The notes under the pieces are model-generated. The model worked only from the letters and a program-made list of their open reading frames with translations. It did not search any database and had not been told where the DNA came from. A stretch of DNA of 64,000 bases from Cryomorphaceae bacterium (lineage in GTDB: Bacteria; Bacteroidota; Bacteroidia; Flavobacteriales; Schleiferiaceae): positions 1-64,000 of the forward strand of contig WTIZ01000027.1 in assembly GCA_011525035.1 (NCBI GenBank), given 5' to 3'. Shown here in pieces: positions 2,227-50,775 of the stretch. Every line of letters starts with the position of its first letter. Position 1 is the first letter of the stretch. The position numbers and the translations under genes were made by a program.

Positions 2227-3108
2227 ATGAAACAAAGAATTCCCGCTTTATTAAAGCCCGGTGATTTGATCGGATTGAGTGCTACCGCAAGGTTTGCCAC
2301 AAGGGAAATGATTTCAACGGCCAAGGCCTACATTGAAGCCGCGGGCTTCAACGTCTTTTATTCTGAAGACATTTTACTGCAGGACGGTCAGGTAGCTGGT
2401 ACGAAAGAGGCGCGTATTCGTACGACCAATGCGCTCATTCACAACGAAGAAGTCAAGGCTATTTGGAACATCCGAGGCGGATATGGGAGCGCCGAAATTG
2501 TAGACCATATTGATTGGGAAGCCTTGCAAGCACAGCCTAAGTGGCTCATTGGTTTCTCAGACTTTACCACCTTTTTGTCGCATGCTTACCAAAAAGGCAT
2601 ACCTAGTATTCATGGTGCTATGCCGGTAAGCTTCGAAAAAACGAATAAAGAAGACCTCCAGGCCACTTTTGAATTGCTTCAAAACGGACCAAAACCGCTT
2701 GCCCTTACCTCGGCAGCAGCCCCGTGTAGCGGTAAGGTTATTGGTGGGAATTTGAGCGTAATCTACTCCATCTATGGAACGCCTTCCCTACCCACATTAG
2801 AGGGTACAGTACTGCTGCTTGAGGATTTAGACGAATACCATTACCACCTCGACCGAATGCTTCTGGCTTTGGAGCGAAAAGGTGCTTTTAAGGGAGTAAG
2901 CGCTGTCCTCTTGGGCCAATTCTCTGATATCCATGACCACGATACACCTTGGGGAGACTCCGTAGAACAGACCTTGGTCAAGTACTTTGAAGCCGCAGGA
3001 ATTCCGGTACTTCAAAATATGCCTTTCGGACATACTTCAAAGCAGTTTCCGATTGTCATTGGCAGCCATGCTGAAATTTCTGAGCATGAAATCGCCTTCA
3101 CGCTCTAG
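2227..3108 (+). CDS. LD-carboxypeptidase (peptidase family S66)
   Basis: Cytoplasmic muramoyltetrapeptide carboxypeptidase family, which removes the terminal D-Ala from recycled murein tetrapeptides. 293 residues from this start. The nucleophile Ser is in IGFSDFT, the catalytic Glu in LLLEDLDEY and the His in FGHTSKQFP, in the order expected for S66. An in-frame ATG exists at 2209, but a TATTTTTC box (2215-2222), one mismatch from TAnnTTTG, lies between the two ATGs, and the conserved N-terminus (KPGDLIGLSA) begins just after 2227, so I chose the later start. The symbol ldcA would fit by function. Confidence 0.9.
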   Translation: MKQRIPALLKPGDLIGLSATARFATREMISTAKAYIEAAGFNVFYSEDILLQDGQVAGTKEARIRTTNALIHNEEVKAIWNIRGGYGSAEIVDHIDWEALQAQPKWLIGFSDFTTFLSHAYQKGIPSIHGAMPVSFEKTNKEDLQATFELLQNGPKPLALTSAAAPCSGKVIGGNLSVIYSIYGTPSLPTLEGTVLLLEDLDEYHYHLDRMLLALERKGAFKGVSAVLLGQFSDIHDHDTPWGDSVEQTLVKYFEAAGIPVLQNMPFGHTSKQFPIVIGSHAEISEHEIAFTL

Positions 3109-3163
3109 GCTGCTGATAACTTAGAGTTTTCCACCATTCTTGCTAGTAGGCACCTTGTACAGC

Positions 3164-3171
3164 AACCTTTG
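3164..3171 (+). promoter_or_regulatory. Weak candidate -7 box for the YraN-like gene
   Basis: AACCTTTG differs from TAnnTTTG only at the first base. It ends 3 nt before the ATG at 3175, which would make a leaderless transcript. It also argues against the upstream in-frame TTG at 3169, which lies inside the box. Confidence 0.3.
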
Positions 3172-3174
3172 TGC

Positions 3175-3495
3175 ATGGACTATAGATTGTATGAAAAGCA
3201 TGCAGCAGCCTACCTGAGAAATGACCATTGCGAGGTCCTGGTCGAAAACTACCGACGCTCGCGCACTCAGATTGATGTTGTTGCTCGAAAAAATGGCGTA
3301 TTGATTGTTGCTGAAGTGAAATACCGGAAGCACGGAGGGCTTCCTGAAGGGCTAATTTCCCATGGGCAAAAAGAGCGTATTCACCGAGAAATAGGTCCCT
3401 TAATGGTCAAGTACCACTGCAACGAATGGCAGCTACTGCTCTTCTTTTACCGAGCGAAAAGCTTCGTACCTGAAATAATTGCCTTAGAATGTTAG
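3175..3495 (+). CDS. YraN/UPF0102 family endonuclease-like protein
   Basis: Small protein (106 residues) of the UPF0102 family, which has a restriction-endonuclease-like fold. The family signature is seen as an Asn-rich N-terminal helix followed by TQIDVVARKNGVLIVAEVKYRK-type residues, that is the Asp of IDVVA and the Glu-X-Lys of AEVKYR, which form the putative metal site. The usual Gly-Glu before Ile-Asp is Thr-Gln here, a deviation at a conserved Glu. The biological role of the family is not firmly established. An alternative TTG start at 3169 was rejected. Confidence 0.8.
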   Translation: MDYRLYEKHAAAYLRNDHCEVLVENYRRSRTQIDVVARKNGVLIVAEVKYRKHGGLPEGLISHGQKERIHREIGPLMVKYHCNEWQLLLFFYRAKSFVPEIIALEC

Positions 3496-3537
3496 TCATT
3501 CGCTCGCTTTCGTAGTGCTAATGGCCTCGAACTAAGC

Positions 3538-3545
3538 TAACTTTG
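3538..3545 (+). promoter_or_regulatory. -7 box TAACTTTG for the RluB-like gene
   Basis: Exact match to TAnnTTTG, 18 nt before the ATG at 3563. The predicted transcript leader is only about 12 nt. Confidence 0.6.
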
Positions 3546-3562
3546 CAGAAAATATTCCTGCC

Positions 3563-4465
3563 ATGCGCAACAGTCGTTCTAATAGCAACGGACCTCGTCG
3601 AGGAAAGTCTCAAAACTCAAACAATCGCTTTGCGAGTGGCCCTAAGAAAACTTGGGACCGCGAGGAGAAAGGTGACCGTCCGCAGCGCGGTGCTCGCCCT
3701 GCGAAGAAATACAGAGGCGTTCGCAGCAAAACTGCAGAACAACTCAGTGGTGCCAGCGACGAAGTTCGTTTGAATAAGTATTTATCTAATGCAGGCATTT
3801 GTTCGCGTCGCGAAGCCGATGACCTCATTGGTGCTGGATTGGTGTCGGTCAATAATAAAGTCGTGACCTCCATGGGCTACAAAGTGAAGCCTACAGATGT
3901 CGTGAAATACAATGGCACCACGTTGAAGACAGATAAGTTGCGTTATGTACTTCTTAATAAGCCGAAGGGATTCCTTGCTTCGATGGACGATCCCAAAGCA
4001 CGCAAGACTGTTTTTGAACTTGTCGGGAATGCATGCAACGAAAGAATCTACCCTGTTGGGCAGATGGAACGCGGCAGCACTGGAGTTCTGTTGTTTACCA
4101 ACGATGCGGATACTGCAAAAAAATTGACCAAAGGAGTTAATGGTGCAGCGAACATCTATCATATAGTGCTTGATAAGCCGTTAAGTAAACAACAGCTCGA
4201 TACCATTGCCGCAGGCACTGTCTTAGAAGATGGACCGGTTCCGGTGGAGGAAATCAATTTTACCGACGAGAAGAACAAGCGCGAAATAGGCATGCGTATT
4301 CACGTAAACAAGCCTCGAATAGTGCGCCGTCTGTTTGCTCATTACGGTTTCGAGGTGGAGAAATTGGACCGCGTATCCTTCGCAGGTCTAACTAAAAAGA
4401 GATTAAATAGAGGCGATTACAGGCACCTCGATCCTAAAGAGGTGGGCTTCTTAAAAACGAGATAA
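3563..4465 (+). CDS. RluB/RsuA-type pseudouridine synthase, catalytic Asp substituted
   Basis: 300 residues. A basic, Ser/Arg/Asn-rich tail (1-60) precedes an S4 RNA-binding domain (about 68-115) and an RsuA-type pseudouridine synthase domain (about 126-290). In active family members the catalytic Asp lies in the motif GRLDxxTxG. Here the motif reads GQMERGSTG (166-174), so Arg, Leu and the catalytic Asp are Gln, Met and Glu (E169, codon 4067-4069). The fold is otherwise well kept, including RIVRR near the C-terminus. It could be inactive, an altered enzyme, or an RNA-binding ribosome assembly factor. It has its own -7 box and is followed 4 nt later by the AsmA-like gene. Confidence 0.85.
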   Translation: MRNSRSNSNGPRRGKSQNSNNRFASGPKKTWDREEKGDRPQRGARPAKKYRGVRSKTAEQLSGASDEVRLNKYLSNAGICSRREADDLIGAGLVSVNNKVVTSMGYKVKPTDVVKYNGTTLKTDKLRYVLLNKPKGFLASMDDPKARKTVFELVGNACNERIYPVGQMERGSTGVLLFTNDADTAKKLTKGVNGAANIYHIVLDKPLSKQQLDTIAAGTVLEDGPVPVEEINFTDEKNKREIGMRIHVNKPRIVRRLFAHYGFEVEKLDRVSFAGLTKKRLNRGDYRHLDPKEVGFLKTR

Positions 4466-6869: not shown

Positions 6870-7589
6870 CTACTTTGGGGCGAACGTCGCCAAGAAATGA
6901 TTTCGGTGGTCCTTTCCTGCCTTTTCTAGTCCAATGCGTACAATCAAACGTGTGTACAATCCTTCCTGTAGATAAGCCGCCATATGATCTTCGGCCAATT
7001 CAGGTTGCTGCTGCCACAAACATTTCATCAACCAGCCAATGGCCTTTTGTAAAATCTCAGGGGCATCCTCTGCAGCTACCGGTGCGTAGGCTAGTAATTC
7101 ATCGTACCTGCCTTGTTTTAGCATCCAAAGCTGAGCAACAATAGCCGCACGCTTCTTCCACATATTTGGACTTTCAAGCAATTCCTCCAACGTGGAAAAA
7201 TCGCCTGTGTTAAAAGCGTGTTGCCCAAAAATCTTGTGTGCACATGTATCTACCAGATCCCAGTTATTGATGCCTTCGAAGCAGCTGTACAACACATCGT
7301 GCCAATGCTGCCTGCGTTTGCGCTCCTTCCCATAGTAACGCATTAACGTGAAAAGTGCCGTGTGACGCACCTCGTGAATAGGGTGTACAAGACCGCTACG
7401 TAAAATGCGCTCGTCCCACTGATCGAAATACGCTTTGGCAACCTTCTGACGGTCCGGAACCATCACGCCCATGAATGTATCGCCCTCGGCATAGCCACCT
7501 TCAAACGTTTGAAAGTAGCGCATGAAGTCGTTGATGCGGTCCGGCTGGGCGAAAGGTATTAGTGCCTCATGAATAGGATGCAGCTGCAT
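6870..7589 (-). CDS. AlkD-like DNA alkylation repair protein
   Basis: 239 residues made of HEAT-like helical repeats, matching the DNA alkylation repair (AlkD) family that excises bulky or positively charged alkylated bases. The family signature NNWDLVDTCA (108-117) carries the Trp (W110) and Asp (D114) needed for base excision. The ATG overlaps the stop codon of the upstream aminopeptidase gene by one base (TAATG), so the two are translationally coupled. Substrate is inferred from the family only. Confidence 0.88.
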   Translation of the reverse strand: MQLHPIHEALIPFAQPDRINDFMRYFQTFEGGYAEGDTFMGVMVPDRQKVAKAYFDQWDERILRSGLVHPIHEVRHTALFTLMRYYGKERKRRQHWHDVLYSCFEGINNWDLVDTCAHKIFGQHAFNTGDFSTLEELLESPNMWKKRAAIVAQLWMLKQGRYDELLAYAPVAAEDAPEILQKAIGWLMKCLWQQQPELAEDHMAAYLQEGLYTRLIVRIGLEKAGKDHRNHFLATFAPK

Positions 7590-9541
7590 TACATCTGCTC
7601 AGCAAACAGGGCGTCCAAAGTACCTTGCGCTAGCGGGTGGTACGACGCTCTTGAGTCCATGTAAATCTTCTTGGCCCAAGCTTGGCGTTTCTCATCGCCC
7701 TCCAACATGCTTTGGTACATCGGCACGATAAACTTGCGGCGTCCTACGCTGCCCAAGAAACTCTCGACTTTCTTCGTGTAGATGTCGTTGTCGTAGCCCT
7801 CGAAACCTGTTTTCAGAATAGCGGAATACCATGCTGCCACAATCTCTGGGTTTGGGCTGCCGCTGAAACCATAGTTCCCGTCGGCCAACGCATAATGTCC
7901 TTCCGAAGCACCTCCGGCCTCGAGACCTCTGATGTAGCGGAGCCATTCCTGGGTAGTCCAGCGGATGGTCGTTTCCTGCGGTAGATAGGCCATACTTCGT
8001 GCATCCGCTGCATCCGGATCCACGTTCAGCATCATTGCTACAGCATCATCTACTACAACAAAGCGGTTCGAAGCTGGGAATGGACAGTTCACAGGCAGAC
8101 CAGTGCCGTATACCCACTGTTCTACACCCACTTTATCCCATTGCTCCTGAGTCATCACCCCTGCCAATTCCTGCAGGAAGACTTCAGTAACCATGGTTTT
8201 GAATTTGTACTTGTCGAAGTAGTAAGTCAGGAATTCATCCCACTTTTCGCGGCCCACCGTATTCTCGCACAAGCGCAAGAAGTGGAACCCTTTATCATAG
8301 GCGATGGCATTGACACCATCGTCCGGATTCTTGCCCTTCAAATCTTGTTTCAAAGAGGTCGCCTCCACATTTTCTTCCAGCATAACGGCCAATTCTTTTT
8401 GCAAATCGTCGTAGCTCAATGCCTCGAGCATGTCCGCAAAATCGACCCCGTAGAGCTTTTCCATAATGCGCATCTCAAAGTAAACCGTGAAACCCTCGTT
8501 GATCCAGAAGTCGTTCCATGTAGCGTTGGTCACCAAATTTCCACTCCAACTATGGGCCAGCTCATGTGCAATCAAGCTCACTAGGCTCATATCGCCCACG
8601 ACAACCGTCGGCGTCAAGAAAGTCAGTCTTGGATTTTCCATCCCCCCAAACGGGAAAGACGGCGGGAGAACAAGCATGTCGTAACGTCCCCAATAATAGG
8701 GACCGTACATCTCCTCTGCATCGGCAATCATATCCTCCGTCTGTGCGAATTCGTAAGCTGCATTGCGTACCATTTCTGGTTCTGCATATACCCCCGAGCG
8801 CTCGCCCAAAGGAATGAACGCTAGATCACCTACGCCCAATGCGAGCAAGTAAGAAGGTATAGGCTGCGGCATGCTAAATTCATAGATGCCCTCGTCGTTT
8901 TTCTGTGTTGGGTTTGACGCACTCATTAGCGCCAACACCTCCTTCGGCACCTTCACGGTCGCCTCATAGGTAAACCTCACCCCTGGACGGTCTTGACAAG
9001 GCACCCAAGTCCTTGCAAGGATAGCTTGACTTTGTGTAAACAAGAACGGCTGACGCTTCCCTTGAGTCAATTCCGCCGGGTACCACTGCAATGCCTCAGC
9101 CTCTGGTGAGGTCTTGTACAATATGCTTATGGTCTGAGCGCCTGGTGCGGCAACTACCAATGCTGAACCCAACAAAGGGTCGTCGCCCTCGATGGTGAAC
9201 AATGCGCGGCTTCCATCGACCAATACCTCATTTACCTCTAAATCCTTGATATCAAAAATGACCGTATCGCCATGACCCTCCTCAAGGGTCCAAACTGCAT
9301 TTGCAGTGATGATTTCCTTTTCAAAATCTACCGCTGCTTCCCAGTTCAAATGCGTCACTTTGGATTCCTCACGCGAATAGCTGTGTGGATCCTCGAACAG
9401 CTCAGCACGTACAGAAGTATCTGCTTCCACCACTACTTTAGTGGGCTGTGGCGCAGCGGCAGGTGCTGTAGTTTCTTGATTACAAGCTGTGAAAACTAGG
9501 GCCGACACAGCGGCTATGCTCAGGGAAAAACGTATTTTCAT
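7589..9541 (-). CDS. M1 family metallopeptidase lipoprotein (LTA4 hydrolase-like)
   Basis: 650 residues. The N-terminus has a signal peptide with a lipobox ending at Cys20 (LVFTAC), so it is a lipoprotein. The substrate-binding GGMEN motif is at 299-303 and the zinc site is HELAH (326-330) plus Glu349 of NEGF, the arrangement of M1 aminopeptidases. The C-terminal helical domain fits the leukotriene A4 hydrolase C-terminal family. It probably trims peptides in the periplasm or at the outer membrane. It overlaps the AlkD-like gene by one base downstream. Confidence 0.94.
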   Translation of the reverse strand: MKIRFSLSIAAVSALVFTACNQETTAPAAAPQPTKVVVEADTSVRAELFEDPHSYSREESKVTHLNWEAAVDFEKEIITANAVWTLEEGHGDTVIFDIKDLEVNEVLVDGSRALFTIEGDDPLLGSALVVAAPGAQTISILYKTSPEAEALQWYPAELTQGKRQPFLFTQSQAILARTWVPCQDRPGVRFTYEATVKVPKEVLALMSASNPTQKNDEGIYEFSMPQPIPSYLLALGVGDLAFIPLGERSGVYAEPEMVRNAAYEFAQTEDMIADAEEMYGPYYWGRYDMLVLPPSFPFGGMENPRLTFLTPTVVVGDMSLVSLIAHELAHSWSGNLVTNATWNDFWINEGFTVYFEMRIMEKLYGVDFADMLEALSYDDLQKELAVMLEENVEATSLKQDLKGKNPDDGVNAIAYDKGFHFLRLCENTVGREKWDEFLTYYFDKYKFKTMVTEVFLQELAGVMTQEQWDKVGVEQWVYGTGLPVNCPFPASNRFVVVDDAVAMMLNVDPDAADARSMAYLPQETTIRWTTQEWLRYIRGLEAGGASEGHYALADGNYGFSGSPNPEIVAAWYSAILKTGFEGYDNDIYTKKVESFLGSVGRRKFIVPMYQSMLEGDEKRQAWAKKIYMDSRASYHPLAQGTLDALFAEQM

Positions 9542-9576
9542 GGGTGTATTTTCTAATGCAACCCAATTTACCGCAA

Positions 9577-9930
9577 ATGAAACAAAATAATAGCCTTCTT
9601 ACCCGTCTTATCGTTTCCTCCCTATCTGTTTTCGTCGCCGGTTGGCTCTTGCCTGGAGTTCAGATCGACAGCTTTACCACGGCGGTGGGAATCGCTATCG
9701 TTTTAGGCCTATTAAATGCCACCCTGAAACCGCTGCTCATTGTCATTACCATTCCTATTACCGTGATGAGCCTCGGTCTATTTCTACTCATCATCAACGC
9801 CATTATTATTGGCGTGGCGGACCAGTGGATCGATGGACTTTACGTGCGAAGCACATGGACGGCCATACTCTTCAGCTTCCTGATTTCTACAATTAGTTCG
9901 TGGATGTACCGCTGGGGAGAGAACAGGTAA
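9577..9930 (+). CDS. Small membrane protein of the PF04020 holin-like family
   Basis: 117 residues with about four transmembrane helices, GWLLPGVQIDSF and LGLLNATLKPLL near the first two helices and a short loop ADQWIDGLYV before the last. This is the chromosomal phage_holin_4_2 (PF04020) family, which is widespread in Bacteroidota and not evidence of a prophage. Earlier in-frame starts exist (GTG 9544, ATG 9556); I chose ATG 9577 because the family's membrane region begins within a few residues of it. Function unknown. It abuts the convergent murI gene with no spacer. Confidence 0.75.
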   Translation: MKQNNSLLTRLIVSSLSVFVAGWLLPGVQIDSFTTAVGIAIVLGLLNATLKPLLIVITIPITVMSLGLFLLIINAIIIGVADQWIDGLYVRSTWTAILFSFLISTISSWMYRWGENR

Positions 9931-10710
9931 TTAGTCCTCTAGACGTACGAGTTCCCATTGCGCATCAATGCCAAAGGTCTTTTCGGCAAGTCGCAGGAAA
10001 TTATCCGTGCGATCACTGAGGTAAAATGCATTGCCTTCGCTGTGCTCACCTGTCCAATGTTTGGCAACGGCCTCAGCAACTATAGAAGGGGCATCTACCC
10101 AATGCACTCCTGAAAGAATAGAAGCTGCAGCCTCCTCTAATAACGGGTAATGTGTACAGCCAGGAACAAGCGAAGTGATGCCGTTCATGGCCGGGTCTTT
10201 TAAGTAATGTGCTAGAACACTTGCATCTATACCTGTCCCTAGAAATCCGTCTTCGATTAAAGGAACAAGCAATGGTGTAGCCAATGCTTGAAGCTCCACC
10301 TCGCTGTTTTTGGCTGCAAGTTTCTCAGAGTAGGCACCGCTGCGAACCGTGGCGCGGGTGCCAAGCAAGCCCACCTTTTGTGGAGAAAGGGACGCTAGAT
10401 AATCGACCACCGGGTCAATCACATTAACAAATGTCAATTCAGGAAATCGCTCTTCCAAGGCTTTACCCGCAGCTGCACTAGCACTGTTACAAGCAATGAC
10501 GATAAGTCCGCAGCCTTGGTCTTTTAAGAACTGTACAATCTCCACACTGTAGCCAACGATGGCCTCGTCACTTTTATCTCCGTAAGGAAGGTGAAGCGTA
10601 TCGCCATAATAGACTTTGGCAGCATCGGGCAGCATCTTATTGAGCGCACGAAGCACCGTAAGACCTCCCAGTCCACTATCAAACAAGCCTATTTTTCCAA
10701 TGCTACTCAT
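9931..10710 (-). CDS. murI: Glutamate racemase
   Basis: Cofactor-independent racemase giving D-Glu for peptidoglycan, 259 residues. The two catalytic cysteines are in VIACNSASAAA and GCTHYPLL, and the N-terminal signature is GLFDSGLGGLTV. A longer frame begins at 10740, but that ATG directly follows the U-tract of the upstream terminator, and a TAAGTTTA box lies at 10717-10724, so the ATG at 10710 is preferred. It is the last gene of the envelope cluster but is separated from it by a terminator. Confidence 0.95.
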   Translation of the reverse strand: MSSIGKIGLFDSGLGGLTVLRALNKMLPDAAKVYYGDTLHLPYGDKSDEAIVGYSVEIVQFLKDQGCGLIVIACNSASAAAGKALEERFPELTFVNVIDPVVDYLASLSPQKVGLLGTRATVRSGAYSEKLAAKNSEVELQALATPLLVPLIEDGFLGTGIDASVLAHYLKDPAMNGITSLVPGCTHYPLLEEAAASILSGVHWVDAPSIVAEAVAKHWTGEHSEGNAFYLSDRTDNFLRLAEKTFGIDAQWELVRLED

Positions 10711-39311: not shown

Positions 39312-39329
39312 AACGAATAGGTTTTGACT

Positions 39330-39354
39330 AAAAAAGAGGCCACAGAAGGCCTCT
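39330..39354 (-). terminator. Intrinsic terminator after the PorV-like gene
   Basis: The 7-bp stem AGAGGCC (39335-39341) pairs with GGCCTCT (39348-39354), loop of 6 nt, followed on the minus strand by a T-run (39335-39330). It closes the TonB receptor-1342 aa protein-PorV operon. Confidence 0.85.
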
Positions 39355-39385: not shown

Positions 39386-40429
39386 TTACAAGTTGATTCG
39401 TGTTCCGATAGTGTGGATACCATTAAACGCCGAAGTAGTACCACGGTAGGCATAATCAATAGCGAAAGAACCGTCGTCACTTGTTGGTACGTTAAAGCTG
39501 AATCCACCACAGATTCCTGAGATAGCAGAAGTACCGATACCGTCAGCACGGTTGTCTCTTGCAACGTAACCTACGCGAACTTGGAATAAATCTTTCAGGC
39601 TGTATTGCACACCTGCATGGTAGGTATCCTTTTCAAATGCATTTGATGTAAAGTTCAAAGCACCCGTTACCTTTCCATTCTCAAGCAACCAGTCGTATGA
39701 ACCACCAATGCTCAATGCTGTTGGTAGCTCGAAAATCGCAGAGCGGCTTTCAAATGTTTGTGTGTAAGCAACACCGTACGTAGGAACTGGAAGAGTTACC
39801 CCTAAACCGTCACCTTCGTAGGTAATACCTGGACCTACGTTACGCAAGGTGATTCCAAATTTGAATCGGTCGTCAATACCTGTGCGGTACTGAACACCCG
39901 CGTCGAAACATACACCACTCGTATTCAAGTTAGAAATCGAGCTGCTGTAGATTTTCACGTTAGCACCACCGTAGATGTTTTCTGTAAACTTCTGTGCGTA
40001 GCCTAGGTTGATCACGATACTCTGTGGAGAGATTGTCGCGCCAGTACCTTCCGGCTGGTCCGTTGTAGTCACTTCCCATTCGCCATAATCAAATGCGCTA
40101 ATTCCCATATTTAGGACACCCACATCGCTGACGCGCTGCACGAGTGTTGCACCGTTCATTTGGATCCCAGCACCAACCAACCACTGTGTGTTGTTAAAGG
40201 TAACTTGAGTATTGCCCTCCATTGCCGCAATACCTGCGATGTTTACGAATGAGGCATCCATACCGCTTGCTCCAGCAACATTTACAGAGCCCCAACCCGA
40301 TGAACGAGCAAATGGGTTGATCAATAATTCTGAAGCACCTGCTGAACCTGCACGCTGCGGGTTACCCGCCTGCACAGTCCCTACTAGAGCCAGTGCGCAA
40401 AATGCAATGATGTATTTCTTCATATTCAT
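39386..40429 (-). CDS. PorV/PorQ family outer-membrane barrel
   Basis: 347 residues with a signal peptide (about 3-22). The early segment RAGSAGASELLINPFARSSG and the regular 14-strand-like pattern ending in GTRINL are those of the PorV/PorQ (FadL-like, DUF3308) family. PorV itself shuttles T9SS cargo to the attachment complex; this gene is a paralogue, not necessarily PorV. It follows the 1342-residue protein by 12 nt and is the last gene of a three-gene operon. Confidence 0.85.
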   Translation of the reverse strand: MNMKKYIIAFCALALVGTVQAGNPQRAGSAGASELLINPFARSSGWGSVNVAGASGMDASFVNIAGIAAMEGNTQVTFNNTQWLVGAGIQMNGATLVQRVSDVGVLNMGISAFDYGEWEVTTTDQPEGTGATISPQSIVINLGYAQKFTENIYGGANVKIYSSSISNLNTSGVCFDAGVQYRTGIDDRFKFGITLRNVGPGITYEGDGLGVTLPVPTYGVAYTQTFESRSAIFELPTALSIGGSYDWLLENGKVTGALNFTSNAFEKDTYHAGVQYSLKDLFQVRVGYVARDNRADGIGTSAISGICGGFSFNVPTSDDGSFAIDYAYRGTTSAFNGIHTIGTRINL

Positions 40430-40441
40430 TTTTATTCTCTC

Positions 40442-43400
40442 TTAGAATGAGTTCAAATCTACTGGACGGAGTGCACCGAACCACTTCACAACCTTCTCGC
40501 CCAAATCACCTGCATCAACATGTATGATGTACACACCCGATGCGATAGGAACGTTATATGTATTCTTCAGATCCCACTCAATGAACGTGAGTGAGTTGTC
40601 CTTTCTCAACTGACGTACCAGTGTACCAGAAGTCGAGAAGATGCTGATCGTACATGTTTCAGGAAGGTTGGTAATCTTCACAATGTTGTCCAACTGTGAA
40701 CCTTCGTACGCACTAAATCCGTAGTATGGATTCGGCACCACACGAATGGTTTCTAGAGCACTCGAACCTACTGAGTCAATAAAGGTCTTGGTTGCGATGT
40801 TTGACGTGTTGAACTGGAACTGAGGTAAACCACCGTTCGGTGCATCAGCCAACTGACTGTTCTGATATGCAGCGTTCATACGAATACGTATACGTGTTTC
40901 TGTAGGAAGCTCTGTGTAAGGATCAAAATCCAATCCTTGACGTAGGGTTGGCATACCAATCCAACGACATGCTCTCCAGAAATTAGCCTTGGCAATGTTA
41001 CCTAAACCACCAGTCTTCACTAGATCTTCCATCAAATCCTTCAATGGCCAGTTGTTGATGTTTGGACCAGAGTAAGAAAGGTCTACGTTGCTTCCAGAGA
41101 TTTTATCTTCATCCGCGAACACGTAGATGTAGTGCTGACCACCAAATACGTAACCACCATTTACAGTGTTACCTGGCGGCAAGAACTCGCGATCCGTTGG
41201 GTTCCAAAGCATGTCATTACCGTTTTCGCCCGGCAACCATGAGTTTTCACCAAAGGCCATTGATAGGCGCTTACCAGATTCTACGTCGATAGCATAACCT
41301 GGGAAGTACGACCAACCCGGTGCCATGTTTGGATCTTGTACAAGGTTTCCATTGTTCAACGTCCAAGAAGTATCCTGACGCTGTGTCAATTTCTTATCAC
41401 CATGCTCACTCAAACCTACTTCTTCAGCAAGCTCGAATACTGGTACACGAGTCCATTTACTTCTGTCTTGCGTAAAGACAATATCAACAGAATGAAGATT
41501 TGCAGCATCGTTCAAGTTACGTCCGATAGTCACCGCTGGACCCATACCGTAGTTTGGATAGCCGTTTACATTCACACGGTTATTTCCTGAGGCATACATG
41601 TAAGGTCCCCAAGTACCATCTACGATGTTTTCAAAGTATCCTTTAGCATCACCATTTTGATCTGGGTACAATGTTGCAGGCTCCTCTGTCGGGAAGCTGT
41701 TCGTACCTGCTAGAATCCAGTTGTACGGTGTGTACGATTTATCATCCTTGATACCCGACCACCACTCTTTCGAAGGATCGTCGTAAATAATCTCAGAGAA
41801 AATCACACCATTGTCGTACGAACCTTCATCATCACCACCAGGTGATGGCGCTTGCTGAACAGCTACAGACAATCCGAGATCTGGAATAATTTGCTCGTTG
41901 TAGAACGAGATGGTTGTATCAGATTCTGCAATTACAGCGCCTGTTCCATCTGTGATTTCCCAGTTAGCCGTTGCATTAGCAGCATCAAAAGTCAAGGTGT
42001 ATTCACCGTCTTTTACCTCAAGTGGATCGACCACCTTGATAGCAACAGGTCCCATACCGCCCATGTACGACGGTTGACCATCTGAGTTGCCACTCATGAT
42101 TGCATCTACCTCTTCAGGAAGCAGTTCAAGTTCAGTACCACCATTACCTACACCATCAAGGCGTTTGATGATAGGACCGTCTCCGTACTGAGCCACCTGT
42201 ACCGTACCGCCTTTCTCAGAATCAATCTGATGAGGAATTACAGTATACGTTTTAATGTTACGACGACCTGCAAGGAATGGAATCTTCTGTCCTCCCGGAG
42301 CAGTAGTCGGATTAAACTCTAGGTATTGGTTTTGACCGTAAGCAATCACAGTGAAGTAGTATTCTTTGTGGTTGATTAGCGTACGATCACCAGTAGCAAA
42401 TTGGTCTTCAGTAATCTGGAACGAAGTGAAGATACCTTCATTGTTAGATTGTAAAGTCATGTCTTGCGGTACCAATGCATTTAAGTCTGGATCTACCTCC
42501 CAGTTGATGAGCTGTGTAAGACCATTCTTGATATCACATTGAGCAACCATACGGCTTTGTGTAGGATCGTAAATGTCAGAGATACTTACGTCTGAGTTTG
42601 CCAATTGGAAAATCTGGAAACCTTCGAACTTGTAATCGAAGTAATCTGGATTTGCATTCAAGATTGAATCACGATCGTCAGGGCTAACTGTGATTAGCGG
42701 ATCGCGCTCGCGGTAGCTAAAGCCTACGTTATTAGAACCTGGGCCGTACGTCAATTTCAAGATCACCTCACGATCAAGCTCTTGAGCCGTTACGTCCGGT
42801 GCGTCTGGACCGTTCAATACTTGGAAACAGTTATCGAACAGTTTCTGCGCTTTATCGTCAGCAATGATCACCTTCTCTACAGAAGCAAATAGATCGTTAT
42901 TGATAAGATCACGCTCCCAAACTACCCCTGTAGTTACAAAGTTCAAAGCACCCGGTGCCAAAGAGAACGGACCTGCACTGTGGAGACCACGCTTATCTTC
43001 TTTGTTCGCTGGGCTCTCCCACCAATCTACTGGCGAATATGGAGGGTACGCTCCCGTAGTATCGTAAGACATACCTGGGTAAGCGAAACGTGTTGAAGTA
43101 CCGTTACCTGAAGCAACAAAACCATCACCGTTACCAAGATCACCTGCACCTGAAGGCGTTTCAATAATCAACTCTGAACCGTTCTTCCAAAGTGCACGCA
43201 TGTAGTTGTAGAAGTGCGTTGCATTATCCGGGTTACCAGAGATGTTTGATGCCGTGTTGTTGTAGTACATGAACTGGCTCATAATGATACGCTCGTTCAC
43301 ACCCGTTGCTGGATCTTCAGCAACACAAACACCTGTTTCAGGATCTTTCACACCGTCCACACAACCGTCACGGTCATTATCCAATCCGTCGTAGTAATCT

Positions 43401-44470
43401 GCGAAAGGACCTTGGAAGAAGTCGAAACCTACAGCAGGTGGATTCAATCCGTAACCCAATGCACCTTCATCTTCAGTATCTGAGTTGTAACAGTATCCAA
43501 GACCACGAGCAATATCACAACCAATAATATCATCCGTGTAGTTCCCTAAATCTGGATCAAACCACGTTGAGAAGTACGTATTAGTAAGACGGAACGTAGA
43601 ACGGTTAATAATACGATAGTTGTTGAACGTCATGTTGTTCACTTCATCGTTGGTTGAGAAAGCAAACGCTTGCGCACGGATTTCGAAACCTAGGGCACCT
43701 GCCTGTGATTCCGTGTGAACGTTACCACGGTCATTGTATACCCACCAGATGGTTTGGTCACCGTAAAGAACGTCAGTTTCCTTGTCGCGACAGTCGTACT
43801 CTTTATCGATATCGTATGCAGGGTAGTCTACCAAGTAATCGTAAACACCGTCACCATCACGGTCAATGAAAGGAGCCAATTGGTACGGCAACTCGCCGTC
43901 TACACCATTACCTGGCCAATCCTTAATGCTTTGCGGAATCTGGCTTTCGTACCCTGGGAAGAGCTCTGCATCGTTACAGTTTGGATCGTCCAAACATTCC
44001 AACCATGCCTTGTGCACATCTACCTCTTCACGGTAAATGATCCAATGGCGGTCGTACTTATCACAGATTTCTTTGTTTGTCGAAGCTGTACCATCAGTAG
44101 TTAGCGGACCTGGCCAGTAGTCGTTACCCGACTGACGGTAGGTCATTGCTGCCAATTTCAACTGGTTACCTTCATCTACACCACCAAGCCACAATGAACC
44201 GGCAAACATAGAGTGCTTGTTCGATCCCTTTGGCACCTCGTAGCGTGCGGTGTTCAAATCCCACCACATATCACCACCACCTAGGATGGTCGCACGAACG
44301 TTGTTGATGCTCAAATCACTCTGTGCCTTTGAAGGCTGACAAAGTTCTTCGACTGTTTTCATAGAACCGGTATTGGCACTACCTGAGTTCTCGCTGGCAC
44401 CTTGAACCTCACGGGCTGAAAGTGGCAGTGTAAAAGCGGCTGAAAGTAAAAGGAGATATACTCTTTTCAT
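40442..44470 (-). CDS. Large secreted protein with T9SS/FlgD-like C-terminal domain
   Basis: 1342 residues. Signal peptide (1-20). Calcium-loop-like motifs DRDGDGVYD (203-211) and DGLDNDRDGCVDG (361-373) lie in the first third. The C-terminal ~100 residues (from about 1240: VVPNPYYGFSAYEG ... WDLKN ... VPIASGVYIIHV) have the fold pattern of FlgD-Ig/T9SS type A sorting domains, though the tail KWFGALRPVDLNSF is atypical. Probably a cell-surface protein exported with help of the neighbouring PorV-like barrel. No enzymatic motif is visible. Confidence 0.85.
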   Translation of the reverse strand: MKRVYLLLLSAAFTLPLSAREVQGASENSGSANTGSMKTVEELCQPSKAQSDLSINNVRATILGGGDMWWDLNTARYEVPKGSNKHSMFAGSLWLGGVDEGNQLKLAAMTYRQSGNDYWPGPLTTDGTASTNKEICDKYDRHWIIYREEVDVHKAWLECLDDPNCNDAELFPGYESQIPQSIKDWPGNGVDGELPYQLAPFIDRDGDGVYDYLVDYPAYDIDKEYDCRDKETDVLYGDQTIWWVYNDRGNVHTESQAGALGFEIRAQAFAFSTNDEVNNMTFNNYRIINRSTFRLTNTYFSTWFDPDLGNYTDDIIGCDIARGLGYCYNSDTEDEGALGYGLNPPAVGFDFFQGPFADYYDGLDNDRDGCVDGVKDPETGVCVAEDPATGVNERIIMSQFMYYNNTASNISGNPDNATHFYNYMRALWKNGSELIIETPSGAGDLGNGDGFVASGNGTSTRFAYPGMSYDTTGAYPPYSPVDWWESPANKEDKRGLHSAGPFSLAPGALNFVTTGVVWERDLINNDLFASVEKVIIADDKAQKLFDNCFQVLNGPDAPDVTAQELDREVILKLTYGPGSNNVGFSYRERDPLITVSPDDRDSILNANPDYFDYKFEGFQIFQLANSDVSISDIYDPTQSRMVAQCDIKNGLTQLINWEVDPDLNALVPQDMTLQSNNEGIFTSFQITEDQFATGDRTLINHKEYYFTVIAYGQNQYLEFNPTTAPGGQKIPFLAGRRNIKTYTVIPHQIDSEKGGTVQVAQYGDGPIIKRLDGVGNGGTELELLPEEVDAIMSGNSDGQPSYMGGMGPVAIKVVDPLEVKDGEYTLTFDAANATANWEITDGTGAVIAESDTTISFYNEQIIPDLGLSVAVQQAPSPGGDDEGSYDNGVIFSEIIYDDPSKEWWSGIKDDKSYTPYNWILAGTNSFPTEEPATLYPDQNGDAKGYFENIVDGTWGPYMYASGNNRVNVNGYPNYGMGPAVTIGRNLNDAANLHSVDIVFTQDRSKWTRVPVFELAEEVGLSEHGDKKLTQRQDTSWTLNNGNLVQDPNMAPGWSYFPGYAIDVESGKRLSMAFGENSWLPGENGNDMLWNPTDREFLPPGNTVNGGYVFGGQHYIYVFADEDKISGSNVDLSYSGPNINNWPLKDLMEDLVKTGGLGNIAKANFWRACRWIGMPTLRQGLDFDPYTELPTETRIRIRMNAAYQNSQLADAPNGGLPQFQFNTSNIATKTFIDSVGSSALETIRVVPNPYYGFSAYEGSQLDNIVKITNLPETCTISIFSTSGTLVRQLRKDNSLTFIEWDLKNTYNVPIASGVYIIHVDAGDLGEKVVKWFGALRPVDLNSF

Positions 44471-44495
44471 ATGCTGTTTTTCGAATGCTTTTTAA

Positions 44496-47400
44496 TTATA
44501 GTCCAATGCGTAAACCTAGACGGATACGACGTGGCAAGCTGAACAAACCAGGGTTTGCCAAGCTGATGTTGTACAAATCTGCGAACGATTGTGCGCTCGC
44601 TTGGAATTGAATAGCGTTTTGACCTTGAGGCGAGCTCAAGTAACCGTCATCACTAGGTGATCCCGTGTAAGGATATACACCTAATACATTTTGCGTATTC
44701 AGAACGTTCAGCATTTGAACGTAGATCTCAAAGTTGCTTAATGGACCTTCATTGAAGTTCCAAACCTTGTTGGCCGTTGCATCTACACGGAAGCTCCATG
44801 GTAAACGAGAACCGTTGATGTTACCGGTCATCGGCGTTTGTGCATCTGTCAAACCGTAGGCAAGAACACGACGCGTATATGGAGTACCCGAGTTAGCATT
44901 CACTACCAAATTCAGACCGGCGTTTTCAAGCACGCGCTTTCCGAACCATACAGGGCCGTTGTATGCTGGACCTCCACCGTAGCGGTAGTCCATATTCATT
45001 ACTACCTGGTGGCGTGAATCGTACGACAACGGTAGGATGTAACGCAAGTTTGGCTGTCCTGAACGGGCGATGTTTGCACCCGAAGTAGAGCTTGAACCAG
45101 TACCGTCAGCGAACTGCAAAGTGTAGTTTGCATTCAATCGAACATTACCTGTACGACGTAAATCGTACTGTACGGTATATCCTTTTACTGTACCGAAATC
45201 CAAGTTTCCAAATGCGATGTAGGTTACTGGATAAGCCTCAGTGAAACTAAACGACTGCATCATATCGCGCATCTCGCGGTAGAAGGCACTTAATTTAAGT
45301 GCACTGTTGTCGTTCAATTTCTGACGGAAACCAATCTCGTAATCCGTAGTACGCTGTGGTTTCAAATCTGGGTTAGACAATAGGCCACCGTTATTACCGT
45401 TCTCCAACTGTAAGAAGGTGATTGGGTTCATTCTGTTTACCCCTGGATCCGGACGCTGCACCATGATATCGTAGTGTGCGAAGAATTCCGCCTCATCCGA
45501 AATAGGGAACTGGAACGAAATACGTGGACTCACTGTAACCTGTGGCGTGTAGTCTTTGAAACTTTCATTGGCAGTAACTGCTAATTTCTGGTCTTCAATA
45601 CCCGGGTTTTTCAAGAATGGCTTAATACCACCACTTAAATCCGCAATGTTCTTAGGATTTGCTTCAACCTCACCGTTTGCAGTGTACCAAGTAGTTCCTT
45701 CACGGTACCCTACAATGGCTGATGGGTTTTCTTGGTCGTCAACATATACTACTGCGTCGTCACTAATACCTTCCGGTACGTCATAACCTGCTAGGGTAGT
45801 TGCACCTAGATCTCCAACAGAATATGCTGGGTACAATACATAAGGATCTGCAAGGACTGGCTGGTTCGCATCAAAGCGGTCAACACGAACACCTATATTA
45901 AAGAAGAGGTCTTCGTAAGTAAACTGGTCTTGGATATAACCTGCCATGTAAATTGGTTCAAAAGCGCCAATCAAACGTGGTGAGTTGCCCTGAGCGTCTG
46001 TAGCAAAGAAGTCTGTCAACGATGGACGCGTTGTCAATCTGTTTCCTAGATAATCGAAACCGTAATAACCAATGTATTGGCTCGAACCAATGTTTAATAA
46101 TTCATTCGCAGAGAACATATCCAACGAGAACGTTGATGGATCGTACGAATCGATATCCAACCAATCTGTGCCGTTAGGATCTAATCCTAAAGTTTCACGC
46201 AAGTTGCGATCGAATGTTCTTGGCTTATCCGCATCAAACAAACGCGGGTAGTTCAAAGTATCCTGGAATACACCATTGTTGTCGTAAGAAGCTATTGGAT
46301 TGTTTAGGTCCAATTCGCGGATGGCATCATTTTGCAATAGACGCATCAATGTCCACAATCCAGTTGCTCCTACGCTGTAAGAACGGTCGAAGCGTTGTTC
46401 GTACTCCACACCCACAATAAGCGAGTGGTCCTTGATATCAAATGTTGAAGAGGCTGTAATACGGAACTGGTCGTTTAACGTCTTTCCGTAAGAAGCTTGG
46501 TTTGCACCGACATTCCCCCATAAACCGTACACAGACGATGGCTGGTCACCGTTTAGAAGACCACCACCTGCACGAATATCCTCTAGCGAGCGAGCTCTGT
46601 TGAAGATCAAGTTTTGATCCACAAAGTCGTAGAAGTTTGAGGTGTAGTTTGCAAGGATTGGATTGTTTTCACCTGGCGTGTAATCCACATTGGCACTCTG
46701 GAATACAGCAAGGGTATAGGCATCCATTACCTTTCCATAGTTAGGATCGTTTGGATCTGTAATGGTATCTGAGCCTAGCGTATACAATGGACGGTACTGT
46801 GTTTTGAACGTACCGATGTGACCGTAGGCAAAAAGATTGTCTTTGTGACGTGCATCTTGCGTCAAACGCTCGTTACGCGTGAAGTCCATTTGGATGGTGT
46901 AGAACGCATTACGAATAAGAGAGTTCGAAGAATCTGATGGATTCCCGAAACGTTGCTGGAAGCGCACGTAGGTCGACCAGTCTTGTGCAAACGACTCTGA
47001 GTTGTTTGCATAATTCATCAACTCATTAAATCTGCTACCGTTACGACCTTGATTCATGTTGTAACGACCACCTATAGTCAAGGTCGTCTTCTCTGAGGTC
47101 ACAAACTTCAAGTTACCTGATACACGAACGGCTGTACGCGCTACATTCTCGCGGTAGTTTTGAGGCGACAAGTCTTCTTGTCTTAAGAAATCTGCTGCAT
47201 TGAGCACACCAAAACCTGAAGAAGCTGGTACCAATGGATTGGCTTGTAACTCTGCGAGCTTATCATCGTTCACTTTCCAAGTAGTCAACGAACGAGGAGA
47301 TCCGTCACGGTTGTATTGGAATTCTGAAGCGAGGAGGAAACCAACAATAGGCTGTCCTGTTTTCTTATTTCTGATAATCGGTCCACCCAGGGTTAGGGCA

Positions 47401-48143
47401 CCCAAGTTGTAGTGGTATGGGTCGAAAACTGAGCTGGTCAAAATCTCAGAAGAACCAAAGTAATACGGTGCTGGACCTTTGGTAGTCGTAGAAATTACAC
47501 CACCGGTAACGTCACCGTACTGTGCGGGAACACCACCCGTAATAACCTCCGTCTGCAAGATCGCATCACGCGGCAGGTTGACATCACCACGAACCTTTAC
47601 CCCATCGATAAAGATGACGTTGGTAGACGAACGTGAACCACGAACGTTGAACGAACCGCTACCGTCTTGTTGGAATACACCTGCTGTGGTACCAACAATC
47701 TGACTAAGGTTACGATACGGCAGGTTTTTGATTTCCTCCGAGCTTACAATTTCCGAAGTCTTCCCCGTTTCGATGAGTTCTTCTTGGGCGGTAACCGTGA
47801 CCTCCTGAATCATCGTACTTTCGACAGTCATGTTGAAATTGACCACCTTGGGCTTTCCGGAATAAACCGTTACACCGTTAAGGTTGAAATCTGCGTAACC
47901 GATGAAATTACAAGTAAGGTTGTACACCCCCGCATTAACTGGGTTGATGTTATACTTTCCATCGAAATCTGTCGTTCCTGTTGCAATGACAACATCCTTG
48001 TCTTTTACGATTACCGTAGCAAATGGAATGACTTCGCCGGTGCGCTTATCCTTGACCGTTCCCTTGATAGAACCGGGACGTGTTTGACCGTAGCTGAACG
48101 CTACAGCAAAGACCATAATAAGCGTGAGTATTCTTTTGACCAT
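44496..48143 (-). CDS. TonB-dependent receptor with CarboxypepD_reg-like domain
   Basis: 1215 residues. Signal peptide (1-20), a carboxypeptidase regulatory-like Ig domain (about 25-105), a plug domain (about 120-230, FNVRGSRSSTNVIFIDGVKV) and a 22-strand barrel. It imports or interacts with a substrate using TonB energy; the ligand is unknown. Unlike SusC it is not followed by a SusD gene but by a large secreted protein and a PorV-like barrel. Candidate -7 box TATATTTA at 48184-48177, with a TTG 22 nt further upstream. Confidence 0.92.
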   Translation of the reverse strand: MVKRILTLIMVFAVAFSYGQTRPGSIKGTVKDKRTGEVIPFATVIVKDKDVVIATGTTDFDGKYNINPVNAGVYNLTCNFIGYADFNLNGVTVYSGKPKVVNFNMTVESTMIQEVTVTAQEELIETGKTSEIVSSEEIKNLPYRNLSQIVGTTAGVFQQDGSGSFNVRGSRSSTNVIFIDGVKVRGDVNLPRDAILQTEVITGGVPAQYGDVTGGVISTTTKGPAPYYFGSSEILTSSVFDPYHYNLGALTLGGPIIRNKKTGQPIVGFLLASEFQYNRDGSPRSLTTWKVNDDKLAELQANPLVPASSGFGVLNAADFLRQEDLSPQNYRENVARTAVRVSGNLKFVTSEKTTLTIGGRYNMNQGRNGSRFNELMNYANNSESFAQDWSTYVRFQQRFGNPSDSSNSLIRNAFYTIQMDFTRNERLTQDARHKDNLFAYGHIGTFKTQYRPLYTLGSDTITDPNDPNYGKVMDAYTLAVFQSANVDYTPGENNPILANYTSNFYDFVDQNLIFNRARSLEDIRAGGGLLNGDQPSSVYGLWGNVGANQASYGKTLNDQFRITASSTFDIKDHSLIVGVEYEQRFDRSYSVGATGLWTLMRLLQNDAIRELDLNNPIASYDNNGVFQDTLNYPRLFDADKPRTFDRNLRETLGLDPNGTDWLDIDSYDPSTFSLDMFSANELLNIGSSQYIGYYGFDYLGNRLTTRPSLTDFFATDAQGNSPRLIGAFEPIYMAGYIQDQFTYEDLFFNIGVRVDRFDANQPVLADPYVLYPAYSVGDLGATTLAGYDVPEGISDDAVVYVDDQENPSAIVGYREGTTWYTANGEVEANPKNIADLSGGIKPFLKNPGIEDQKLAVTANESFKDYTPQVTVSPRISFQFPISDEAEFFAHYDIMVQRPDPGVNRMNPITFLQLENGNNGGLLSNPDLKPQRTTDYEIGFRQKLNDNSALKLSAFYREMRDMMQSFSFTEAYPVTYIAFGNLDFGTVKGYTVQYDLRRTGNVRLNANYTLQFADGTGSSSTSGANIARSGQPNLRYILPLSYDSRHQVVMNMDYRYGGGPAYNGPVWFGKRVLENAGLNLVVNANSGTPYTRRVLAYGLTDAQTPMTGNINGSRLPWSFRVDATANKVWNFNEGPLSNFEIYVQMLNVLNTQNVLGVYPYTGSPSDDGYLSSPQGQNAIQFQASAQSFADLYNISLANPGLFSLPRRIRLGLRIGL

Positions 48144-48184: not shown

Positions 48185-48233
48185 AGCATCAGAACCGGAG
48201 AATTGACAAGGAAATCGAGCTATCTTGCAGCCA

Positions 48234-48698
48234 ATGAGTAAACGACTTTACAGACTGATAAACAATCCCTTACAGGCCCTGCTATTGCTGGCGTTGGGAT
48301 TAAGTGCATGCAACAACACCAATGTTGTCTACGATATTCCGGAACCTTTGGTCGATGAAACAGTCTACGTGAGCGACCCTTCGAGCTTCAATCTGACGGT
48401 CGTTGGAGGCCAATTATTACTGCCAAATGCAGGCCATGCTGGGGTTTTAGTTTACCGCCGGTATTTCGACGGTCAATTCTACGATTTCGCCGCTTACGAA
48501 GCCGCCTGTCCAGAGCACTGGGCCGACGGTTGTGGCGTGCTAGAAAGTACCAATGGGGATTTCTATTTTACCTGTGGGTGCGACGCACACCAATACCAAC
48601 TTCTGGATGGCCAAAGCGTAGATACCAGCTATACGCTACCGATCAAAGAATACAGCTGTTCCTTTGACGGGGTAAATGTGATTCGAATTACGAATTAA
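48234..48698 (+). CDS. Rieske-like lipoprotein with non-canonical ligands
   Basis: 154 residues from ATG 48234, lipobox ending at Cys26. The fold pattern (short beta strands, cofactor loops, LLDG end) resembles the small Rieske [2Fe-2S] lipoproteins of Bacteroidota. Box 1 reads CPEH (92-95), C-x2-H rather than C-x-H, and box 2 reads CGCDAH (114-119). Cluster binding is therefore uncertain. A TATCTTG element lies 7 nt upstream. An in-frame TTG at 48225 was rejected. Confidence 0.7.
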   Translation: MSKRLYRLINNPLQALLLLALGLSACNNTNVVYDIPEPLVDETVYVSDPSSFNLTVVGGQLLLPNAGHAGVLVYRRYFDGQFYDFAAYEAACPEHWADGCGVLESTNGDFYFTCGCDAHQYQLLDGQSVDTSYTLPIKEYSCSFDGVNVIRITN

Positions 48699-49980: not shown

Positions 49981-50775
49981 ATGAAGAAAACGTTACTCAT
50001 TATCGCCCTTATGGGCATCTCAACATATTCGTACACCAACAGCGGGGGGTCACCTGCTGGAAAAAGCGGTTCACCCGGAGATAACGGACAAACTTGTGCC
50101 AGCGGCTATTGCCACAGCTCGGGCAGTCCTATGGGCGGTGAAGTCATCGGCATTATGTCCTCAGTAGATAGCATTTCTGACGGCAATACAATTGGAATCA
50201 CCCTCGGCGTAAAACCAAACGGTACATCTTCGAAGGTCGGTTTCATGGCAAGAGTCGAAGATGCTAATGGGAACCAATTGGCCACCTCAAATCCAGGTAC
50301 TGGCGCGAAGCGTGTTAGCGATTACATCACACACACCAGTGGAGGAACTGCGGTTTCTAATGATAGTATTCATTGGACTTTTGATATTGACGGGACAACT
50401 TTCCCAGACAGTATTACGGTATATGCCGCTATTAATTTCACCAACAGCAACGGTCAGACTTCTGGCGACTACGTGATGACCGCTTCAAAAACACTCTACA
50501 AGAGTACAGGAAGCAGTATTGGTTTTGAAGAGTCTGAAGGCATGCCTTTGATGGTATACCCTAACCCGGCTTCGTCAACCTTGAAGGTCAAAGCAGAGGG
50601 ACTAGTGGCCATTCGTTTGTACAATACACTGGGCCGATTCATACAGCTCGACTATTCAGCCTCTTTGGAAGATCAAGCCATTTTAGACGTAAGCGCCCTT
50701 GCTCGAGGCAACTACATCTTGCACGCAGAATATTCGGACGGTAGCATTCAATACAAGCACGTCGTTTTACAGTAA
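49981..50775 (+). CDS. Secreted choice-of-anchor V type protein with T9SS sorting domain
   Basis: 264 residues. Signal peptide (about 1-19), then GSPGDNGQTCASGYCHSS with C39 and C44-H45, the Cx4CH motif typical of Bacteroidota choice-of-anchor V proteins, a beta-sandwich core (about 50-180), and a T9SS type A C-terminal domain (about 190-264, VYPNPAS ... LYNTLGR ... VSALARGNYILHA). It should be exported through T9SS and attached at the surface. Function unknown. Confidence 0.85.
   Translation: MKKTLLIIALMGISTYSYTNSGGSPAGKSGSPGDNGQTCASGYCHSSGSPMGGEVIGIMSSVDSISDGNTIGITLGVKPNGTSSKVGFMARVEDANGNQLATSNPGTGAKRVSDYITHTSGGTAVSNDSIHWTFDIDGTTFPDSITVYAAINFTNSNGQTSGDYVMTASKTLYKSTGSSIGFEESEGMPLMVYPNPASSTLKVKAEGLVAIRLYNTLGRFIQLDYSASLEDQAILDVSALARGNYILHAEYSDGSIQYKHVVLQ

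Follow-up and report, generated by a model that had tools for sequence, protein, structure and literature searches.

A Bacteroidota operon linking a TonB-dependent receptor, a surface protein with a T9SS type-A-like C-terminal domain, and a PorV-family barrel

Within the window (the whole stretch of 64,000 nucleotides that was analysed), three closely spaced genes code for a TonB-dependent receptor (TBDT), a 1342-residue exported protein (hereafter BIG), and an outer-membrane barrel of the PorV/PorQ family. This operon is probably (at about 0.6) a SusCD-like importer module delivered by the type IX secretion system (T9SS), in which BIG would be held by its own PorV-like barrel beside the TBDT. 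It belongs to a multi-copy class of triads and is not a one-off. SusCD is the textbook system for the import of large nutrients in Bacteroidota, and the T9SS is the textbook route for the secretion of enzymes and adhesins. The triads would join SusCD-style uptake and the T9SS, with a secretion shuttle recruited as a lasting component of the uptake machinery.

The three genes and their products

The source assembly (2.0 Mb, 66 contigs) belongs to the order Flavobacteriales, and its close relatives carry the label Schleiferiaceae or Cryomorphaceae. The ORF list of the window gives gaps of 25 nt between the TBDT and BIG and of 12 nt between BIG and the PorV-like gene, and the terminator lies just past the last stop (Table 1), in agreement with the original prediction of a compact three-gene operon.

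Table 1. Features of the operon and of its products
Feature	Position	Strand	Basis
TBDT, 1215 aa, first gene of the operon	44496..48143	-	ORF; Pfam CarboxypepD_reg and Plug
CarboxypepD_reg domain, TBDT residues 25-106	47826..48071	-	Pfam PF13620, 5.1e-17
TonB-box-like QEVTVTA, TBDT residues 113-119	47787..47807	-	Alignment of 27 homologs; putative assignment
TBDT plug domain, residues 124-216	47496..47774	-	Pfam PF07715, 3.4e-10
BIG, 1342 aa, exported surface protein	40442..44470	-	ORF; signal peptide; C-terminal domain matches
BIG T9SS type-A-like C-terminal domain, residues about 1237-1342	40445..40762	-	TIGR04183; PorZ C-terminus; predicted beta-sandwich
Conserved 10-residue tail ALRPVDLNSF after the last strand of the BIG C-terminal domain	40445..40474	-	Core-type family comparison, 124 proteins
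PorV/PorQ-family outer-membrane barrel, 347 aa	39386..40429	-	NF033709; PDB PorV 6h3i; tree
Intrinsic terminator AGAGGCC TTCTGT GGCCTCT TTTTTT, 3' of the last gene	39329..39354	-	GC stem, then six T's

The first gene had been taken for a TonB receptor with a CarboxypepD_reg domain, which the Pfam matches confirm; the plug, with 40.8 bits for PF07715 against a gathering score of 23.9, identifies a TonB-dependent receptor. The architecture, CarboxypepD_reg followed by Plug and barrel, is Oar-like, and a homolog (in L142) matches the barrel model PF25183. In the alignment of 27 homologs, the candidate TonB box is a degenerate EVxV-like stretch ahead of the plug, and it is followed by a conserved (P)LID/E. 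A single-sequence search of the PDB with the TBDT gave no match at E 0.01. An S-layer reading suggested by a match to NF052345 was rejected, as the match is far under the cut-off and is confined to residues 23-156, the N-terminal carboxypeptidase-regulatory-like region.

BIG starts with a signal peptide that, judged by eye, has no lipobox. Its body is unannotated, no Pfam domain reaching the gathering score, and is modelled with a mean pLDDT of 86 (89 for residues 700-1342). Foldseek searches with the body gave no confident function: the resemblance to parts of glycoside hydrolases and phosphorylases is weak and was left unused, and a GH116/GH94-type enzyme was rejected because hits with E of about 1e-4 to 1e-3 had a TM of only about 0.1-0.22 and an rmsd of 9-13 Å. 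The calcium-loop-like motifs reported earlier are found again as Asp-rich stretches (DRDGDGVYD; DGLDNDRDGCVDG) that are conserved in the family consensus. Across 30 divergent core members, more than 100 columns are invariant. The N-terminal domain (about residues 50-530), which is without a Pfam model, occurs also in shorter proteins of ~550-840 aa that have no triad partners (L177-L182 and similar ones in relatives).

The C-terminal domain (CTD) of BIG had been described as T9SS-like, and profile and fold comparisons point the same way. TIGR04183, the model of T9SS type-A CTDs, gives 24.3 bits, just above its cut-off of 23, and falls under the cut-off in some distant members; a profile search finds the PorZ C-terminus at 1.7e-8. 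Among 30 diverse BIG homologs searched at E 0.01, TIGR04183 is matched by 28, PorZ by 23, and PorU by seven. A PDB profile search with BIG returned the PorZ C-terminus alone, at E 0.13. The predicted fold of the domain is that of the CTD of NucA, a T9SS substrate, as bound in the translocon (8glk_D, probability 1.00, TM 0.69 on target), and it also matches PorU (6za2, probability 1.00) and PorZ (5m11). A search of BIG with TIGR04131, the type-B model, gave no match, which sets the operon apart from a type-B pair of the PorP/SprF kind. Judged by sequence and predicted fold, the CTD of BIG is a T9SS type-A domain closest to those of PorZ and PorU.

BIG does not end at the last strand of this domain, as it carries a conserved tail of 9-10 residues ending in F or Y. 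From the G-x-Y motif to the C-terminus, 114 of 124 core-type proteins have 30-32 residues (overall median 31), against 21-22 residues in 14 of 18 cargo proteins of the same genome, and the sequence ends in F or Y in 109/124 and 0/18, respectively. Since the CTD proteins of noncore triads lack the tail (they have mostly 22-23 residues from G-x-Y), it marks the core copy and not the whole triad class. In L049 (Phaeocystidibacter luteus LMG 25704), one in-frame stop breaks the BIG frame near its 3' end in the assembly, both partners being otherwise intact.

The third gene was assigned correctly to the PorV/PorQ family: it scores 143.8 bits with NF033709 (cut-off 90), which all 26 of its 26 homologs also match, and it matches the PDB structure of PorV (6h3i) at 1.5e-17. 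It reaches only 66 bits for PorV (NF033710, cut-off 250), outside whose clade it lies, and 78.3 bits for PorQ (NF033711, cut-off 220). By these scores it is a family member that is neither PorV nor PorQ. In a FastTree phylogeny of 89 family proteins (~330 trimmed columns; supports are indicative, not final), every PorV-like protein linked to a TBDT falls into a single clade (local support 0.92), distinct from PorV and PorQ. Within this tree, the core barrels, including one extra copy of core type in genome G390, form a clade with support 1.0, and PorV proper forms a separate one, also with 1.0.

A sister module, in which a TBDT is followed directly by a PorV-like barrel with no T9SS CTD protein between them, is found in L161, L252, L278, L284, L288, L292, and L306. 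L161 lies in the genome under study (G000:C52, around 3064-3855). In L161 and L252, the next gene codes for a probable beta-propeller protein, with an NHL repeat in L252 and a lipoprotein-like signal in L161. The barrels of these modules form a clade (support 0.97) nested in the TBDT-linked one.

The genome has the T9SS translocon and sortase: SprA is above the cut-off, and PorU (916 bits) lies directly upstream of PorV (435 bits). Type-A CTDs are found at 48 places, 46 of them above the cut-off. Four PorV-family genes are present, namely, PorV, a PorQ-like gene (217.6 bits, just below the PorQ cut-off of 220), the triad barrel, and the barrel of the sister module in L161.

Distribution and joint divergence of the triads

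The original prediction mentioned similar triads in other Bacteroidota, and these exist in number. In a scan of 77 related contig loci, the order TBDT-BIG-PorV-like is kept wherever there is enough flank, and all incomplete cases are explained by the end of a contig or by a second copy of BIG (L095). At the level of the phylum, the three families are adjacent as a complete triad in 35 of the 40 stretches around BIG matches (L139-L158 and L183-L202), representing 22 families. Altogether, 106 complete BIG loci have both partners, with median gaps of 23 and 13.5 nt, and because of this recurrence the arrangement is not due to chance. Passive synteny is a plausible account within the order, where about 60 loci have greA and HIT neighbors in common, and was rejected for the phylum, where flanking genes vary and greA adjoins only four of the loci.

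Of 393 genomes, 220 match the BIG profile (about 195 with an E-value no higher than 1e-9) and 321 match SprA. None of the BIG-positive genomes lacks SprA (G361 is weak for both), a co-occurrence that is phylogenetically lumpy, as the SprA-negative genomes shown are mostly of one family. The triad was also considered as a part of the T9SS machinery, and this was rejected in view of the many SprA-positive genomes without it. In several SprA-positive families the core unit is absent or weakly matched, and so it does not belong to the T9SS proper. The core copy is retained in genomes of 1.6-2 Mb, and because it is kept even in small marine genomes, whatever the core unit handles is probably important.

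BIG-family proteins without partners fall into two groups. Some have an ordinary cargo CTD (e.g., in L158, L172, L177, L180, L196, and three of the four in L190). Others are second copies with the core CTD type and no barrel of their own (e.g., in L163, L169, L170, L174, and L175), and these may share the barrel of the triad. Because of such extra paralogs, the pairing of BIG and barrel is not strictly one to one. The earlier proposal of a dedicated cargo-shuttle-receptor unit is supported by the conserved linkage and the T9SS CTD, the two points on which it could have been refuted, whereas its restriction to one specific cargo may be too strict.

In a Bacteroidales MAG, a second, diverged BIG with a shortened C-terminal tail lies downstream of a complete triad (L095:13503-17615). 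In L190 (G316:C16), four BIG-family genes stand in tandem with neither a TBDT nor a barrel; the CTDs of three are ordinary, and the gene at 7390-9990 has a core-type CTD with the tail.

Some genomes are rich in PorV-family genes (31 in G336, 18 in G125, and 15 in G281), and lineages with 8-31 such genes hold many of them in triads of a TBDT, a CTD protein, and a PorV-like barrel. Among 63 sampled PorV-family genes other than those of core triads, 29 sit in triads of other subfamilies, a lower bound given ORF masking in high-GC genomes and possibly missed neighbors, notably in G125 (high GC) and L256. Six of the others directly follow a TBDT, four follow a CTD protein (one of these, judging from its position, being PorU-PorV), and the remaining 24 lack such a neighbor, at least three of them passing the PorQ cut-off. 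The bodies of the CTD proteins of noncore triads are largely without annotation.

The three partners diverge in step. Over 43 triads in 14 genomes, pairwise distances correlate at 0.69 between CTD and barrel, 0.82 between CTD and TBDT, and 0.84 between barrel and TBDT. When partners are shuffled within genomes, the mean correlations drop to 0.06-0.09, and in 2000 shuffles the observed values are never attained. The in-step divergence holds also without the core copies. Hence, triads duplicate and diverge as units.

Proposed mechanism and alternatives

The module would be assembled by two pathways. The TBDT would be inserted as an ordinary outer-membrane barrel, and BIG would be exported by the T9SS through SprA. 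PorV receives type-A CTDs at the SprA gate, and certain CTDs stay on their barrel, that of PorU on PorV and that of PorZ on PorQ (PMC10202324). By analogy, the PorV-like barrel, a putative specialised PorV paralog, would take the CTD of BIG at the lateral gate of SprA, carry the protein, and keep its CTD bound and uncleaved, as PorQ does for PorZ, so that BIG would be anchored at the surface via the barrel. A review proposes that cognate PorV-like barrels shield CTDs from cleavage (PMC10202324). BIG would then cap or dock on the TBDT, in a role comparable to that of SusD, and capture a substrate, which the TBDT would import. The T9SS export class of BIG and the co-inheritance of the triad are computational observations, the latter showing joint transmission and divergence of the genes, not contact between the proteins. 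We infer from them the hand-over and retention of the CTD, the contact between BIG and the TBDT, and the import function, the last two being the least supported steps.

BIG could instead be an ordinary T9SS cargo, carried by the general PorV and cleaved by PorU, next to a barrel and a TBDT that are unrelated transporters. Its CTD is of type A, a class said to be recognised throughout by PorV (PMC12618676), and PorV and PorU both occur in the genome. Within the order, synteny extends over the whole greA-HIT-ruvC block, so that linkage there proves little by itself. The linkage persists, however, across the phylum while the neighbors change, paralogous triads diverge as units with barrels that form their own clade, and the BIG-family proteins with ordinary CTDs lie outside triads, which makes this reading distinctly unlikely. 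A role in surface assembly or maintenance, with BIG as a structural or glycan-handling component (like PorZ for A-LPS or the extracellular BAM canopy) and the TBDT as a scaffold or signal, would account for the invariant columns among core members and for their retention in small genomes, which suggest housekeeping, as well as for the resemblance of the CTD to PorZ and PorU. We consider it unlikely, since varied substrates are a better match for the diversification of multiple triad copies in some lineages, and the TBDT has a TonB-box-like stretch.

It is also conceivable that the unit works in export, an Oar-like TBDT helping BIG, or cargo bound to BIG, across the outer membrane. Oar is required for PopC secretion in Myxococcus, and the TBDT has the CarboxypepD_reg and Plug architecture of Oar (PMC6434023). 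Yet this architecture is dominant in Bacteroidetes and thus unspecific (PMC6434023), and BIG bears a T9SS CTD in a genome that has SprA, so this possibility seems very unlikely. The importer module remains the preferred reading.

Relation to known systems

All components of the triad come from known families, and we class it as a T9SS pair of cargo and dedicated shuttle to which a TBDT has been joined. PorQ-PorZ also combines a PorV-family barrel with a protein whose type-A CTD is retained, and the PorZ CTD is the nearest to that of BIG among named families, but no TBDT partner has been described for it, the body of BIG is unrelated to that of PorZ, and the triad barrel belongs to another clade than PorQ. 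In PorV-PorU, too, a PorV-family barrel stands beside a CTD protein that stays bound; PorV, however, is the general type-A shuttle, has no TBDT, and forms its own fully supported clade. The PorP/SprF systems of type-B substrates (SprB, Fjoh_3952, and others) resemble the triad in that the shuttle gene directly follows that of its substrate, and their cognate specificity has been demonstrated at the bench; in F. johnsoniae these dedicated shuttles decide the destination of the cargo (PMC12618676). They differ in joining a type-B CTD to a PorP/SprF barrel, whereas the triad has a type-A-like CTD, a PorV-family barrel, and a leading TBDT gene.

SusC-SusD shares with the triad a TBDT gene followed by that of a surface partner, the multiplicity of copies, and diversification as units. 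SusD, however, is a lipoprotein with a TPR fold, while BIG has no lipobox and has a T9SS CTD and a dedicated barrel; a search of BIG and the adjacent genes with SusD-family Pfam models gave no match. Oar-type TBDTs (PopC, Myxococcus) have the same CarboxypepD_reg and Plug architecture, without a CTD protein or PorV-like partner being found in PMC6434023. A search of open-licence papers yielded no description of the triad, an absence that is not proof.

There is a fair chance that the triads are a distinct importer class. Going further, we suggest tentatively, at a little short of even odds, that a third clade of the PorV family serves solely to deliver and hold T9SS-exported proteins beside TBDTs, making up a second two-part importer class next to SusCD that comprises an ancient, near-core copy along with several diversified ones, and that the sister variant (TBDT, PorV-like barrel, and NHL-repeat protein) has lost its T9SS cargo. 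The triads offer a comparative test of whether dedicated PorV-like barrels protect the CTD from cleavage and set the destination of the protein (PMC10202324, PMC12618676), and they supply dozens of natural CTD/barrel pairs in which residues of specificity could be located.

Two genes close to the triad may be mentioned. A divergently transcribed gene (window 48225-48698, plus strand) codes for a small lipoprotein whose sequence shows a Rieske-like pattern (CPEHW ... CGCDAHQYQ), for which a Pfam search gave no match above the cut-off and which adjoins the triad in about 51 related loci. At 49981-50775 (plus strand) lies the gene of a protein that combines a Choice-of-anchor V domain and an ordinary type-A CTD, i.e., an ordinary T9SS cargo.
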